Assembly: GCA_035527535.1 (NCBI GenBank)
Contig: DATLAK010000038.1
Location: forward strand, 1 to 39,737
Origin: Armatimonadota bacterium
Lineage (GTDB): Bacteria; Armatimonadota; Hebobacteria; GCA-020354555; CP070648
Direction: 5' to 3'
DNA length: 39,737 nucleotides
Position 1 is the stretch's first letter. Every line of letters begins with the position of its first letter. The notes under the pieces were generated by a model. That model saw only the letters and a program-made list of their open reading frames with translations. It was not told the DNA's origin and ran no database searches. Below, one piece after another: positions 1 to 28,766 of this stretch. The position numbers were made by a program, and so were the translations under genes.

Positions 1-108
1 GCGCGATGTCAATCGCGCGAAACCGCCCGTAGGGGCAAGGCATGCCTTGCCCTCTACCTGTGTCGCGCCCGGTGCGACCCCGAAGAACACCCATCAATTC
101 ATCGTTGA
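1..108. other. Non-coding left edge with palindromic repeat
   Basis: No gene is seen here. Positions 1-18 form a short hairpin with six-base arms (GCGCGA / TCGCGC). Positions 29-53 hold a dispersed palindrome listed separately. An in-frame stop at 106-108 closes off the nadE remnant that follows. Confidence 0.6.
29..53. repeat. Dispersed 25-bp palindromic repeat, copy 1
   Basis: The core GGGCAAGGCATGCCTTGCCC (33-52) is a perfect 20-bp palindrome. The 25 bases at 29-53 are identical to 19905-19929. A variant with GC replacing AA/TT in the arms lies at 30884-30903. This copy sits just upstream of the broken nadE remnant, so it may mark a rearrangement point. The palindrome could also form a transcript hairpin. 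Confidence 0.8.
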
Positions 109-18774: not shown

Positions 18775-19908
18775 TTGAGTGATGCTCCCTCTCGCACCGT
18801 TCACGTGCCGCGCTATTTCACGTGCGAACAGCGCCTCGCCGAGCGCCTGGCGCGCTGCGGCCGCCAAATGGGTTTCAGCGCAACCGCAGGCGGCGCACCG
18901 CCCGCAGGCGGCGCACCGCCCACCGCAGAGGAGACCAGCGCATGGCAGCGACAGCTTCGCAGCGAAGTCTGGAGGCTCCTCGGCATGGACGCCATGGAGC
19001 CCTGCGAGGTGGAGGGCGTCGTGACCGAGCGCACACTCATGTCCGGCTACCTGCGGGAGCGGGTCGAGGTGCAAACCGAGCTGGGGGTCACCGCGGTCGC
19101 TTACCTGCTCATTCCCGAGGGGATGACACCGGGTGAGCGGCGACCGGTGGTGCTGGCGCCGCACGGTCATGCCAGCGCCGGGAAGCTCTCTCCCGCTGGT
19201 CGGCGGGATATTCCGGCGGTGGCTGAGACTATCGAGGCGCACTCCTATGACTACGGTGTGGCCTTCGTGCGCGAGGGCTGGGTGGTGTTGTGCCCGGATG
19301 CGCGAGGCTTCGGCGAGCGCCGCGAATCATACAGCCAGGGAGATGACGAGGCTCATTTCATCGGCGGCTCGTGCTGGCAGCTGGCGCACATGGCGCTGCC
19401 GCTGGGCTTGACCGTCGCCGGCATGTGGACGTGGGACCTGATGCGCCTCATAGATTACGCGGCGAAGCGGCCGGACTGCGACGCCAGCCGCATCGGCTGC
19501 GCGGGGCTTTCGGGCGGCGGGTTACAGACGCTCTACCTCACCGCCCTGGACGAACGCGTCACCTGCGCGGTGGACAGCGGATACTTCTACGGGGTGCGTG
19601 ATTCCTTGCTGGTCCTGAGCGCGAACTGCGACTGCAACTACGTTCCCGGGCTGTGGTTGCTCGCCGACATGGGCGACCTGGGGGCGCTATGCGCGCCGCG
19701 GCCCCTGCTCATCGAGACCGGGGATGAGGATACCCTGAACGGGGAGCGCGGCCTGGCCAACGTACGCGAGCAGGTAGCGATCACTCGCCGCGCGTACGCG
19801 GCGCTGGGAGCGGAGGAGCGCCTGCGCCACGCCGTGTTCCACGGCCCCCATCGCTGGGACGGAACCGAGGCGATCCCCTGGCTGCGGCAGTGGTTGACGC
19901 GAATGTAG
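18775..19908 (+). CDS. Alpha/beta-hydrolase esterase (acetyl-xylan-esterase-like)
   Basis: A 377-residue alpha/beta hydrolase resembling the Abhydrolase_7/dienelactone hydrolase-like group, which often cleaves esters on plant or bacterial polysaccharides. The nucleophile elbow is GLSGGG (S246), the likely acid is in ETGDED (D317 or D319) and the histidine is in GPHRWDG (H359). The oxyanion region APHGHASAGK precedes them. There is no signal peptide, so it is probably cytoplasmic. I chose TTG 18775 because GGAGGA (18761-18766) lies 8 nt upstream. The linker at residues 39-50 is a perfect GGAPPA duplication from an 18-bp tandem repeat. The stop codon TAG falls inside the dispersed palindromic repeat at 19905-19929. 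The substrate is unknown. Confidence 0.85.
   Translation: MSDAPSRTVHVPRYFTCEQRLAERLARCGRQMGFSATAGGAPPAGGAPPTAEETSAWQRQLRSEVWRLLGMDAMEPCEVEGVVTERTLMSGYLRERVEVQTELGVTAVAYLLIPEGMTPGERRPVVLAPHGHASAGKLSPAGRRDIPAVAETIEAHSYDYGVAFVREGWVVLCPDARGFGERRESYSQGDDEAHFIGGSCWQLAHMALPLGLTVAGMWTWDLMRLIDYAAKRPDCDASRIGCAGLSGGGLQTLYLTALDERVTCAVDSGYFYGVRDSLLVLSANCDCNYVPGLWLLADMGDLGALCAPRPLLIETGDEDTLNGERGLANVREQVAITRRAYAALGAEERLRHAVFHGPHRWDGTEAIPWLRQWLTRM
18885..18920 (+). repeat. 18-bp perfect tandem duplication in the esterase gene
   Basis: Positions 18885-18902 and 18903-18920 are identical. The unit keeps frame and encodes a Gly/Pro linker between the N-terminal helix region and the core domain. Copy number could vary by slippage. 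Confidence 0.9.
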
Positions 19909-19929
19909 GGGCAAGGCATGCCTTGCCCT
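19905..19929. repeat. Dispersed 25-bp palindromic repeat, copy 2
   Basis: This is identical over 25 bases to 29-53; the palindromic core is 19909-19928. The TAG stop of the esterase (19906-19908) lies within the shared 25 bases, so the repeat may have supplied the stop. It sits between convergent esterase and yvcK genes and could serve as a bidirectional terminator hairpin. Confidence 0.82.
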
Positions 19930-22617: not shown

Positions 22618-23154
22618 TTAGCATTCTCCCGGCGCGGCCGCGGCCCCTTCCAGCGCCAGCAGCCCGCGCTTGAGGTCGAGTCCGCCGCCGAAGCCCACCA
22701 GCCGGCCGTCGCCGCCGATCACGCGGTGGCAGGGAACGATGGGGGCCAGCGGGTTGCGCGCCATGACCTGCCCCACCGCGCGCGCGGCCCGCGCGTTCCC
22801 CGCCCGCCGGGCGACCTCGCCGTAGGTGCGGGTCTCGCCGTAGGGTATGCCTGCCACGGTGAGTAGGACGCGGCAGGTGAAATCGGGCAGCCCTGCCAGG
22901 TCGAGGGGAAGGCCGAAGTCTACCCGCTCACCGGCGAAGAAGCGGCGCAGGTCGCGCAGCGCACGGTGGAGCACTCCGGACACAGCCGAGACTTGCCCGC
23001 CGGTGGTTAGGCGAGGCGGCTGTGCCACATGGATTGCCCCTATTTGCGCCAGGGCCTGTGCAACCGTGGCGCAAGGCAACGTGCAGGCCGCGATGCCGCG
23101 CTGGGTCGCGCGTACGCCGACCCAACCTCGCTCCACATGCGCCAGCGCAATCAT
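22618..23154 (-). CDS. ogt: Methylated-DNA-protein cysteine methyltransferase
   Basis: A 178-residue O6-alkylguanine-DNA alkyltransferase, which removes methyl groups from O6-methylguanine by irreversible transfer to its own cysteine. The active site is PCHRVIG with C142. GIPYGETRTYGEVARRAG (helix-turn-helix part), NPLAPIVPCHRVIGGDG and LVGFGGGLDLKRGLLALEG are all family hallmarks. The start overlaps uvrC by 4 nt (ATGA, 23151-23154), a DNA-repair pairing. Residues 42-58 of the N-terminal domain (HVAQPP to VSAVS) are encoded by a split copy of the 26-bp palindromic repeat seen near uvrA, with 24 extra bases in the middle. The catalytic domain itself is intact. Confidence 0.93.
   Translation of the reverse strand: MIALAHVERGWVGVRATQRGIAACTLPCATVAQALAQIGAIHVAQPPRLTTGGQVSAVSGVLHRALRDLRRFFAGERVDFGLPLDLAGLPDFTCRVLLTVAGIPYGETRTYGEVARRAGNARAARAVGQVMARNPLAPIVPCHRVIGGDGRLVGFGGGLDLKRGLLALEGAAAAPGEC
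22981..23030. repeat. 26-bp palindromic repeat copy split by 24 nt, inside ogt
   Basis: Positions 22981-22990 match the first ten bases, and 23015-23030 the last sixteen, of the 26-bp repeat at 25755-25780. The 24 bases between them (22991-23014) equal eight codons, so the reading frame of ogt is kept. This could be an insertion into a repeat, or the longer form could be ancestral and the 26-mer a deletion product. Confidence 0.75.
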
Positions 23155-25094: not shown

Positions 25095-25120
25095 ATGTGG
25101 CACAGCCGCCCTCGGCTGTG
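25095..25120 (-). repeat. 26-bp palindromic repeat, copy A (right-inverted partner at 25755)
   Basis: The inner hairpin is CACAGCCG-CCCT-CGGCTGTG (25101-25120). The 26 bases are the exact reverse complement of 25755-25780. It lies between uvrC and the 3' end of the DUF3883 gene. Confidence 0.85.
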
Positions 25121-25566: not shown

Positions 25567-25862
25567 TCTGTTCCTCTTTGCTCGCCATCCCATTCATGCC
25601 CTGCTGTCCGCGGCGCGATGGTTCTCAGTCGGGAGGCGATCTCCTGCCCTGCGAGCGTAACGCCCTGGGGTCGGTCTCCTTATTGCTCACTGGCGTGGCT
25701 CCTCTCCGCGTCGTTTCGGCGCCGGCGCGGAGAGCTGACGCTCCGCTCGTTGATCACAGCCGAGGGCGGCTGTGCCACATCCTCCGGCGTCGGCGATGGC
25801 CTCTTCGCTTTCGCTCAGGATGACATCACTCGTCGCAGCCAGCGTCGAGGGACCCGCCAGGA
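25567..25862. other. Repeat-bearing intergenic region downstream of uvrA
   Basis: No gene is seen. It holds an inverted repeat with nine-base arms (CTCTCCGCG at 25702-25710, CGCGGAGAG at 25726-25734) and the 26-bp repeat at 25755-25780. Open frames across it encode Arg/Ser/Pro-rich nonsense. Either hairpin could terminate uvrA transcription. Confidence 0.6.
25755..25780 (+). repeat. 26-bp palindromic repeat, copy B
   Basis: The hairpin CACAGCCG-AGGG-CGGCTGTG (25755-25774) is followed by CCACAT. The 26 bases are the exact reverse complement of 25095-25120 and match the split copy inside ogt. It lies upstream of the DUF3883 gene. Confidence 0.85.
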
Positions 25863-28766
25863 TCAGCAAGCGGGCTGTGCCACACGGGACCGCGCGCGGC
25901 GCGGCTTGGGCTTCTTGGCGCCTTCGTCGTTGCCCCCCAACAGCGCGCGTAGGAACTGCCCGGTGTAGGAGTGCCCAACCTTTGCCACCTCCTCCGGCGT
26001 ACCGCGGGCGACGATCTCGCCGCCGGCGTCCCCGCCCTCAGGACCGAGGTCTATGATGTAGTCGGCGCACTTGATGACATCGAGGTTGTGCTCGATGACG
26101 ATGACCGTATTGCCGGCGTCCACCAGGCGGTTGAGCACCTCCAGCAGCTTCTCGATGTCGGCGAAATGAAGCCCGGTGGTGGGCTCGTCGAGGAGATAGA
26201 GGGTTCTGCCGGTGGCGCGGCGCGACAGTTCCGCCGCCAGCTTGACGCGCTGCGCCTCGCCGCCGGAGAGCGTGGTTGCGGGCTGGCCGAGGCGGATGTA
26301 GTCGAGGCCGACATCGTGGATGGTTTCCAGCTTGCGATGAATCGCCGGGATATTGCGGAAGAACTCGAGCGCCTCGGCGACGGTCATCTCCAGCACCTCG
26401 GCGATGCTGCGGCCCTTGTAGCGCACCTGCAGCGTCTCGCGGTTGTAGCGAGAGCCGCCGCACTCCTCGCACGGGACATAGACGTCGGGCAGGAAGACCA
26501 TCTCGATCTTGAGGATGCCGTCGCCGTGGCAGGCCTCGCAGCGCCCGCCCTTGACATTGAAGCTGAAGCGGCCGGGGCGGTACCCGCGCGCGCGCGCCTC
26601 CGGGGTCTGGGCGAAGAGCTCGCGGATGGCGGTGAAGGTGCCGATGTAGGTCGCGGGATTGCTGCGCGGAGAGCGGCCGATGGGCGACTGGTCTATGTCA
26701 ATCACCTTGTCCAACACGCGCATGTTCTCGATGCGGTCGTGCTTGCCCCACGAGGTGCGCGCCCCCTGCAGCGCGTGCGCCAGCCGCCGGTAGAGGATGT
26801 CCTCCATGACCGTGCTCTTGCCGGAGCCGCTGACGCCGCTGAGACACACGAACACGCCCAGCGGGATCGGGATGTCCACGCCCTTGAGGTTGTGCTCGCG
26901 GGCGTTGCGGATGACCAGCCAGGAGCTGTCGGCGCCGAGTGGCGCGCGGGGCGCGCGGCGGCGGCTGGGCATGGGGATGCGGCGCTCGCCGCTGAGGTAC
27001 TTGCCGGTGACCGAAGCGCGCTGCTTGACCAGGTCCCGCACCTTGCCGGTGGCGACCACTTCGCCGCCGCGCTCGCCGGCGCCGGGGCCGATGTCAATGA
27101 TGTAGTCGGCGCTGCGAATGGTGGCCTCGTCGTGCTCGACGACGAGGATGGTGTTGCCGAGGTCGCGTAGCGCTTCGAGGGTGGCGAGCAGGCGGCGGTT
27201 GTCGCGCTGGTGGAGGCCGACGCTGGGTTCGTCCAGGATATAGAGCACGCCGGTGAGGCCGGAGCCGATCTGGGTAGCGAGGCGGATGCGCTGCGCCTCG
27301 CCTCCGGCCAGGGTCGCCGCCGTGCGGTCGAGAGTCAGGTAGTCCAGCCCGACGTTGAGCAGGAAATCGAGGCGGGCGCGGATCTCCTTGAGCACCTGGC
27401 GCGCGATGAGCTGCTGACGCTGGTCGAGGGCGAGCTGGGCGAAGAACTCGGCGGCGGCGCGCACCGACAGCACGGCGACGTCGGCGATGTTGCTGCCATT
27501 GATGCGCACCGCGAGGCTCTCCGGCTTGAGGCGGGCGCCGCCGCAGGCGGGGCACGGCTGGATGCTCATGTAGTTCTCCAGCTCGCTGCGGCGGTAGTCG
27601 GAATCGGTTTGCTCGTAGTCCTGCATCAGGTGGTAGAGCAGGCCCCGGAACGCCGTATCGTACACGCGCGGGCGACCGCCGCGGCCGCGGAAACGCACGC
27701 GCACGCGCTCGCCGGTGCCCTCCAGCAGCTTGTCGAGCTTGGCCTTGGAGATGCGGCTCAGCGGTGTCTGCGGGTCAATGCCGTACGCCTGCGCGGCCGC
27801 CCGCAGCAGCGAACTGAAATAGCGCGAGACGTCGCTCGCCCAAGGCAGCACCGCTCCCTCAGCCAGGCTCAGGGAGCGGTCGGGGATGATCAGGTCCTGG
27901 TCGAACTCGCGGCGCGTCCCCAGGCCGGTGCAGGCGGGGCAAGCGCCGTAGGGGCTATTGAAGCTGAACATGCGCGGCTCCAGCTCGGGGAAGCTGCGGT
28001 CGCAGCGCAGGCACGCCCCGTGCTCGCTGAAGTCAATCTGCTCGCCGTCAACCACTTGCACCGCGGCGACGCCGCCGCCGATCTTGAGCGCGGTCGCCAT
28101 CGAGTCGGTCAGGCGCTGGCGCAAGCCGGGGCGCACCACCAGCCGGTCCACCACCACCTCGATCGTGTGCTGCTTGTAGCGCGCGAGCTTGATGTCCTCC
28201 GACAGCTCGCGCACTTCGCCGTCCACCCGCACGCGCACGAAGCCCTGCTTGGCGATGTCGTCGAGCACCGCGCGGTACTCGCCCTTGCGCCCGCGCACCA
28301 CCGGCCCCAGCAGCAGGAGGCGCGTGCCCTCGGGCAGCGTCTCCACCGCGTCCACGATCTGCGCCAGCGACTGGCGGGCGATCTTCTGCCCGCACTGCGG
28401 GCAGTGGGGGGTGCCGATGCGCGCGAACAGCAGGCGCAGGTGGTCGTAGATCTCGGTCACCGTTCCCACCGTCGAGCGTGGGTTGTGGGTCGCCGATTTC
28501 TGGTCAATCGAAACCGCCGGCGACAGCCCGTCAATGGTATCCACGTCGGGCTTGTCCATCTGTCCCAGGAACTGGCGGGCGTAGGAGGACAGGCTCTCGA
28601 CGTAGCGGCGCTGCCCCTCGGCGTAGATGGTATCGAACGCGAGCGAGGATTTCCCCGAGCCCGACAAGCCGGTGATGACCACCAGCTTATGGCGGGGGAT
28701 CTCGACGGTGATGTTCTTCAGGTTATGCTGCCGCGCCCCGCGGACGATGATCTTGTCGAGCGACAT
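25863..28766 (-). CDS. uvrA: Excinuclease ABC subunit A
   Basis: A 967-residue UvrA, the damage-sensing ABC-type ATPase of nucleotide-excision repair, which loads UvrB at lesions. There are two nucleotide-binding halves: Walker A1 GLSGSGKS (33-40) and a second GVSGSGKS, with signatures [12 protein letters not shown] and [12 protein letters not shown], and Walker [13 protein letters not shown] and [12 protein letters not shown]. Zinc-binding clusters include [13 protein letters not shown] and the CEACHGDG to CEECGG module. The tail after [10 protein letters not shown] is basic and ends RVAQPAC, where the last codons match half of the palindromic repeat found nearby. ATG 28766 starts the family's usual [16 protein letters not shown]. 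Confidence 0.97.

Follow-up and report, generated by a model that had tools for sequence, protein, structure and literature searches.

The window analyzed here, a whole contig of 39,737 bases from a 3.24-Mb draft genome in 192 contigs, carries an ogt gene (22618..23154, minus strand) encoding a methylated-DNA--protein-cysteine methyltransferase of 178 aa with an intact active-site motif, PCHRV. The protein belongs to the O6-methylguanine-DNA methyltransferases (Ogt) with the PCHR domain, and its Pfam match (PF01035, residues 91-171) covers the full-length domain. Inside this gene, the plus strand at 22981-23030 reads CACAGCCGAG, 24 nt and GGCGGCTGTGCCACAT, that is, 10 bases (22981-22990) and 16 bases (23015-23030) of the 26-mer CACAGCCGAGGGCGGCTGTGCCACAT on the two sides of an inner segment (22991-23014), exactly as the original prediction had described. 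Positions 22981-23024 correspond to CACAGCCG-N28-CGGCTGTG, a 44-nt hairpin, with a GTGG foot on the ogt strand (23025-23028). The complete REP-like unit (22981-23028, minus strand) spans 48 nt or 16 codons and codes for VAQPPRLTTGGQVSAV, residues 43-58 of Ogt.

The intact 26-mer is found in its short form at 25095-25120 (minus strand) and 25755-25780 (plus strand), and at four further sites in the genome. The first of these copies lies in a long uvrC ORF, ahead of the conserved part and probably upstream of the true uvrC start, whereas the second is apparently intergenic, having a NOV_C ORF on one side and the ORF of 25863-28766 on the other. A half copy, GGCTGTGCCAC (25873-25883, plus strand), is present at the 3' end of this last ORF, which runs on the minus strand. 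Also, the ORF with the NOV_C domain (PF13020; 25135-25593, minus strand) is located between the two intact copies.

The pattern CACAGCC-N1-31-GGCTGTG matches 47 sites in the genome, and its reversed control matches 1; in the window it matches 3 sites, and in 100 dinucleotide shuffles none, which rules out a chance match. With a stricter pattern, 41 sites are found in this genome and 0 with the control, compared with 3 in a genome of the same family and 0-5 in each of the other 289 of the 291 phylum genomes searched, so that the copies are many, dispersed and species-specific, as in REPs. The published search rule for REPs asks for GTAG or GTGG 0-2 nt 5' of a hairpin with a perfect stem of 7-20 nt and a loop of 2-5 nt (PMC6006769). 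Among the 47 copies, the foot is GTGG in 34, GTAG in 4, GGAG in 5 and another sequence in 4, and in ogt the GTGG stands at distance 0 from the hairpin. Most of the aligned copies are 20 nt long (stem of 8, loop of 4), which fits the rule, and a few are 17, 19 or 23 nt long. With regard to a possible terminator role, no T-run is present, by inspection, in the flanks of the aligned copies, and the element sequence itself is conserved. The architecture of the repeat is therefore that of a REP, a GT[AG]G foot and a short perfect hairpin in about 47 recognisable copies.

The ogt copy has a stem of 8 and a loop of 28, being beyond the 2-5 nt loop of short REPs. Nevertheless, it is one of five copies of exactly 44 nt, with one more of 45 nt, among the 47, while the genome holds no copies of 24-43 or 46-74 nt and no CACAGCCG-N29-58-CGGCTGTG at any position. 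The same-family genome has three copies, one of them of 44 nt and another of 43 nt. The original prediction saw in the eight-codon split a feature of ogt that keeps the frame; the 24-nt spacing is real but not peculiar to this gene. Most likely, the split arises because ogt carries a long-loop version of the repeat, and a frame rescue specific to ogt can be set aside because other copies have the same arm spacing. Counted together with GTGG, the short form measures 24 nt and the long form 48 nt, both being whole numbers of codons, and the short unit (GTGG plus 20 nt) has a stop codon in none of the six frames.

The inner sequences of the long copies differ, two copies sharing one type and several others another type. 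For the inner 24 nt of ogt there is no second occurrence in 14 genomes of the class even with 3 mismatches allowed, and its similarity to the long copy at L116 is weak (p about 0.006, uncorrected over 7 comparisons). Folded as DNA, the 44-nt ogt strand reaches -11.8 kcal/mol, and none of 200 shuffles is as good. Among the five other long copies, folded or listed, several (L010, L116) fold no better than shuffles.

At the protein level, the linker between residues 27 and 74 comprises 48 residues in this Ogt, the longest of 89, compared with 0-45 in the 88 other references, a set that includes one fragment (L073) with a linker length of 0. Neither AQPP nor SAVS occurs as a peptide in any of these 88 sequences. 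In an alignment with 57 homologues, thinned by hand from the 88 references with L059 among those omitted, no homologue has anything aligned to residues 44-47. In a coverage-filtered set of 30 loci (those passing the filter among L017-L110), this Ogt is longer over the aligned span than 29, the exception being L059, which is 19 longer. Moreover, the nearest relative, at 62% identity, lacks about 10 residues at the segment, and about 10 residues are missing there from the Ogt of the same-family genome. Judged from these comparisons, the ogt copy is a segment added in frame relative to the homologues; the alignments and the linker comparison rule out a conserved Ogt segment, the outcome that would have counted against the original prediction.

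Could the segment instead be normal ogt codons, with a likeness to the repeat that arose by chance or convergence? The linker does vary in length among homologues and the window is GC-rich, as this explanation would have it. However, 26 bases match in two blocks, palindromes of this kind appear in 0 of 100 shuffles, and the peptide is absent from all homologues, so that the idea is in the main refuted and can be given hardly any weight.

The AlphaFold2 model (58 alignment rows) has a mean pLDDT of 91.7, with values of 71-73 in the two blocks that hold residues 41-60. Residues 38-56 are modelled without secondary structure, as a loop between helices 31-37 and 57-73, and the MGMT fold is retained, the model matching solved methyltransferases. 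Also, P141, C142, H143 and R144 are invariant across the 58 rows, and this Ogt retains the other invariant residues as well. The enzyme looks intact despite the insert because the latter falls in a modelled loop, the fold is matched and PCHR is invariant. This agrees with the original prediction of a palindromic element carried in the N-terminal domain of Ogt without apparently breaking it: the alignment of relatives and the model that it proposed place the segment outside what homologues share and in a predicted loop.

Compared with its closest relatives, Ogt has a net gain of about 10 residues, whereas the whole unit codes for 16. Therefore, if the whole unit was inserted, about 18 nt would also have been lost. 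Another reading of this difference is that only a short element of 24-26 nt was added, and that the middle 24 nt are ancestral ogt codons flanked by the two halves of the element. About 10 added residues are closer to an insert of 24-30 nt than to one of 48, and the inner 24 nt are found only in ogt. In addition, the same-family genome (G001), which is too diverged to place the insertion junctions and any target-site duplication to the base, contains an ogt whose DNA, with gaps allowed, weakly resembles the first 37 nt of the unit at the corresponding position, a level of similarity that 3 of 1000 shuffles also reach. On the other hand, part of this gapped similarity falls in an arm, which this same reading takes as inserted, and the ungapped similarity of the inner 24 nt to the same-family ogt is no better than that of shuffles (p 0.42). 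The lengths of the other copies also speak against it, five being of exactly 44 nt and none falling between 24 and 43 or between 46 and 74 nt. Moreover, we know of no mechanism that splits a hairpin with host codons between the halves. An origin of the middle segment in ancestral codons is thus improbable, and the ogt copy is likely the long form of the element.

At least five other genes are affected besides ogt. In TrpA, the same repeat is in frame and adds 23 aa that all 13 relatives aligned lack; in this case, as read from the sequence, the insert consists of two GTGG-tagged hairpins facing each other. With respect to the same-family genome, PyrC is longer by 8 aa and Tgt by 29 aa, both with the repeat in frame, and the net gain of 24 nt in PyrC equals the length of GTGG plus a 20-nt hairpin. 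In TatD and CsaB, the repeat is also in frame and the profile matches across it, and further hairpins can be read besides it. The TatD copy is located downstream of DTHxHL, which we take to be a motif of this protein. In Tgt (L003; element at 1501-1520), three different palindromes stand side by side, in frame, before the conserved PAFMPVGT. In CsaB (L012, 705-2222), the repeat is accompanied by other palindromes, with a low-homology stretch near residues 390-450 and a profile match in three pieces.

In total, 6 of the 47 copies are inside conserved genes (ogt, trpA, pyrC, tgt, tatD and csaB), as counted in a non-exhaustive survey in which, with 83 candidate spanning ORFs of at least 120 aa, 20 spanning ORFs picked by ORF length, codon score and judgement were scanned with Pfam. 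Being in frame is by itself no test of selection, because it is partly how the copies were found. The copy in the uvrC ORF was left out of the count because it lies ahead of the conserved part of uvrC, and the elements at the 5' ends of the QueH, CbiQ, TMEM260-like and T2SSE ORFs were left out too. Two possible further cases are likewise kept outside the count. In L002 (918-2006), a 44-nt long copy stands in frame between two GNAT domains of one ORF, possibly a gene fusion through the repeat. In L005 (77-1693), the repeat is in the C-terminal part of a phage portal-protein ORF, close to the contig end.

Hairpin repeats in frame within conserved genes are a rare and already described kind of event, because intragenic REPs and Rickettsia palindromic elements have been published. 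GTAG/CGTC REPs are reported inside genes of O. terrae, Thauera, Rickettsia conorii and others, as a minority of REPs, and some REP families have long self-complementary loops (PMC3733652). The family described here resembles them in its GT[AG]G foot and short hairpin, O. terrae having mostly GTGG in one family, and also in its short and long loop forms, its dimers and its copies in genes, DNA-repair genes included, but it belongs to another genome and has another hairpin sequence (PMC3733652). In the main text of that article, "methyltransferase" and "alkyltransferase" have 0 matches. Whereas REPs are typically extragenic, the ogt copy and at least five others are intragenic. A literature search on Armatimonadota or on general terms returned no report of such inserts for this lineage.

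RPEs are described as palindromic repeats of about 150 bp that are found in frame in unrelated protein genes (PMC10969869). The repeats in ogt, trpA, pyrC and tgt share this last property, but the unit of 24 or 48 nt sets them apart from RPEs as described there. The dimensions given for MITEs, 70-300 bp with terminal inverted repeats of 15-30 bp (PMC3733652), do not correspond to the present unit either. As in the REPtrons of RAYT/TnpA-REP systems (PMC8266576, PMC6006769), a foot tetranucleotide is combined with a hairpin and Y1 genes are encoded in the genome, but here the repeat family has no adjoining transposase gene. Three Y1_Tnp genes (L160-L162) are above the Pfam cut-off. Two of them (L160 and L162) are amid arrays of other hairpin repeats, one of which is GTAG-tagged, and are candidate REPtrons. 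None of the three has this repeat family beside it, and since no Y1 gene adjoins the family, a RAYT-driven spread in trans is something that we infer.

The question then is whether a transposase other than a RAYT moved the element, which would make it MITE-like or RPE-like. The missing Y1 neighbor would be explained in this way, and what marks out RPEs is that they enter unrelated housekeeping genes in frame (PMC10969869). However, the unit has the size (24-48 nt) and the GT[AG]G foot of a REP, and MITEs are described as 70-300 bp elements with terminal repeats (PMC3733652), so that we regard a non-RAYT origin as rather unlikely.

Based on these data, it is quite probable that a REP-like, genome-specific element was copied into ogt, presumably placed by a RAYT and kept as a neutral loop. 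A Y1 transposase of the RAYT type, acting in trans and recognising the foot and the hairpin, would have inserted the unit, of 24 nt (GTGG plus 20) or 48 nt (GTGG plus 44), through single-strand transposition. Copies that were in frame and in flexible surface linkers would have survived purifying selection. In Ogt, the 16 residues would form a neutral loop that leads from the first helix of the N-terminal domain to the second.

Outside Rickettsia and the REPs surveyed in PMC3733652, this is a clear example, in several genes, of hairpins adding loops to conserved enzymes, and the element-free orthologues in relatives provide a comparison. The genes ogt, trpA, pyrC and tgt form a tractable set for asking if the inserts are neutral, costly or useful. 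A bolder proposal, which we hold as doubtful, is that the repeat family is shaped for life in genes, its units measuring whole codons, the short one free of stops, and single or paired copies spreading as ready-made linkers in housekeeping enzymes (Ogt, TrpA, PyrC, Tgt, TatD and CsaB); if true, it would represent a bacterial route to new protein loops.

Finally, another GTAG-tagged palindrome, GTAGGGGCAAGGCATGCCTTGCCC, is present twice in the window (29-52 and 19905-19928). The window search that returned it gave 8 matches, plus one artefact of the window end; 30 simulated sequences averaged 1.7 matches and never gave more than 5.
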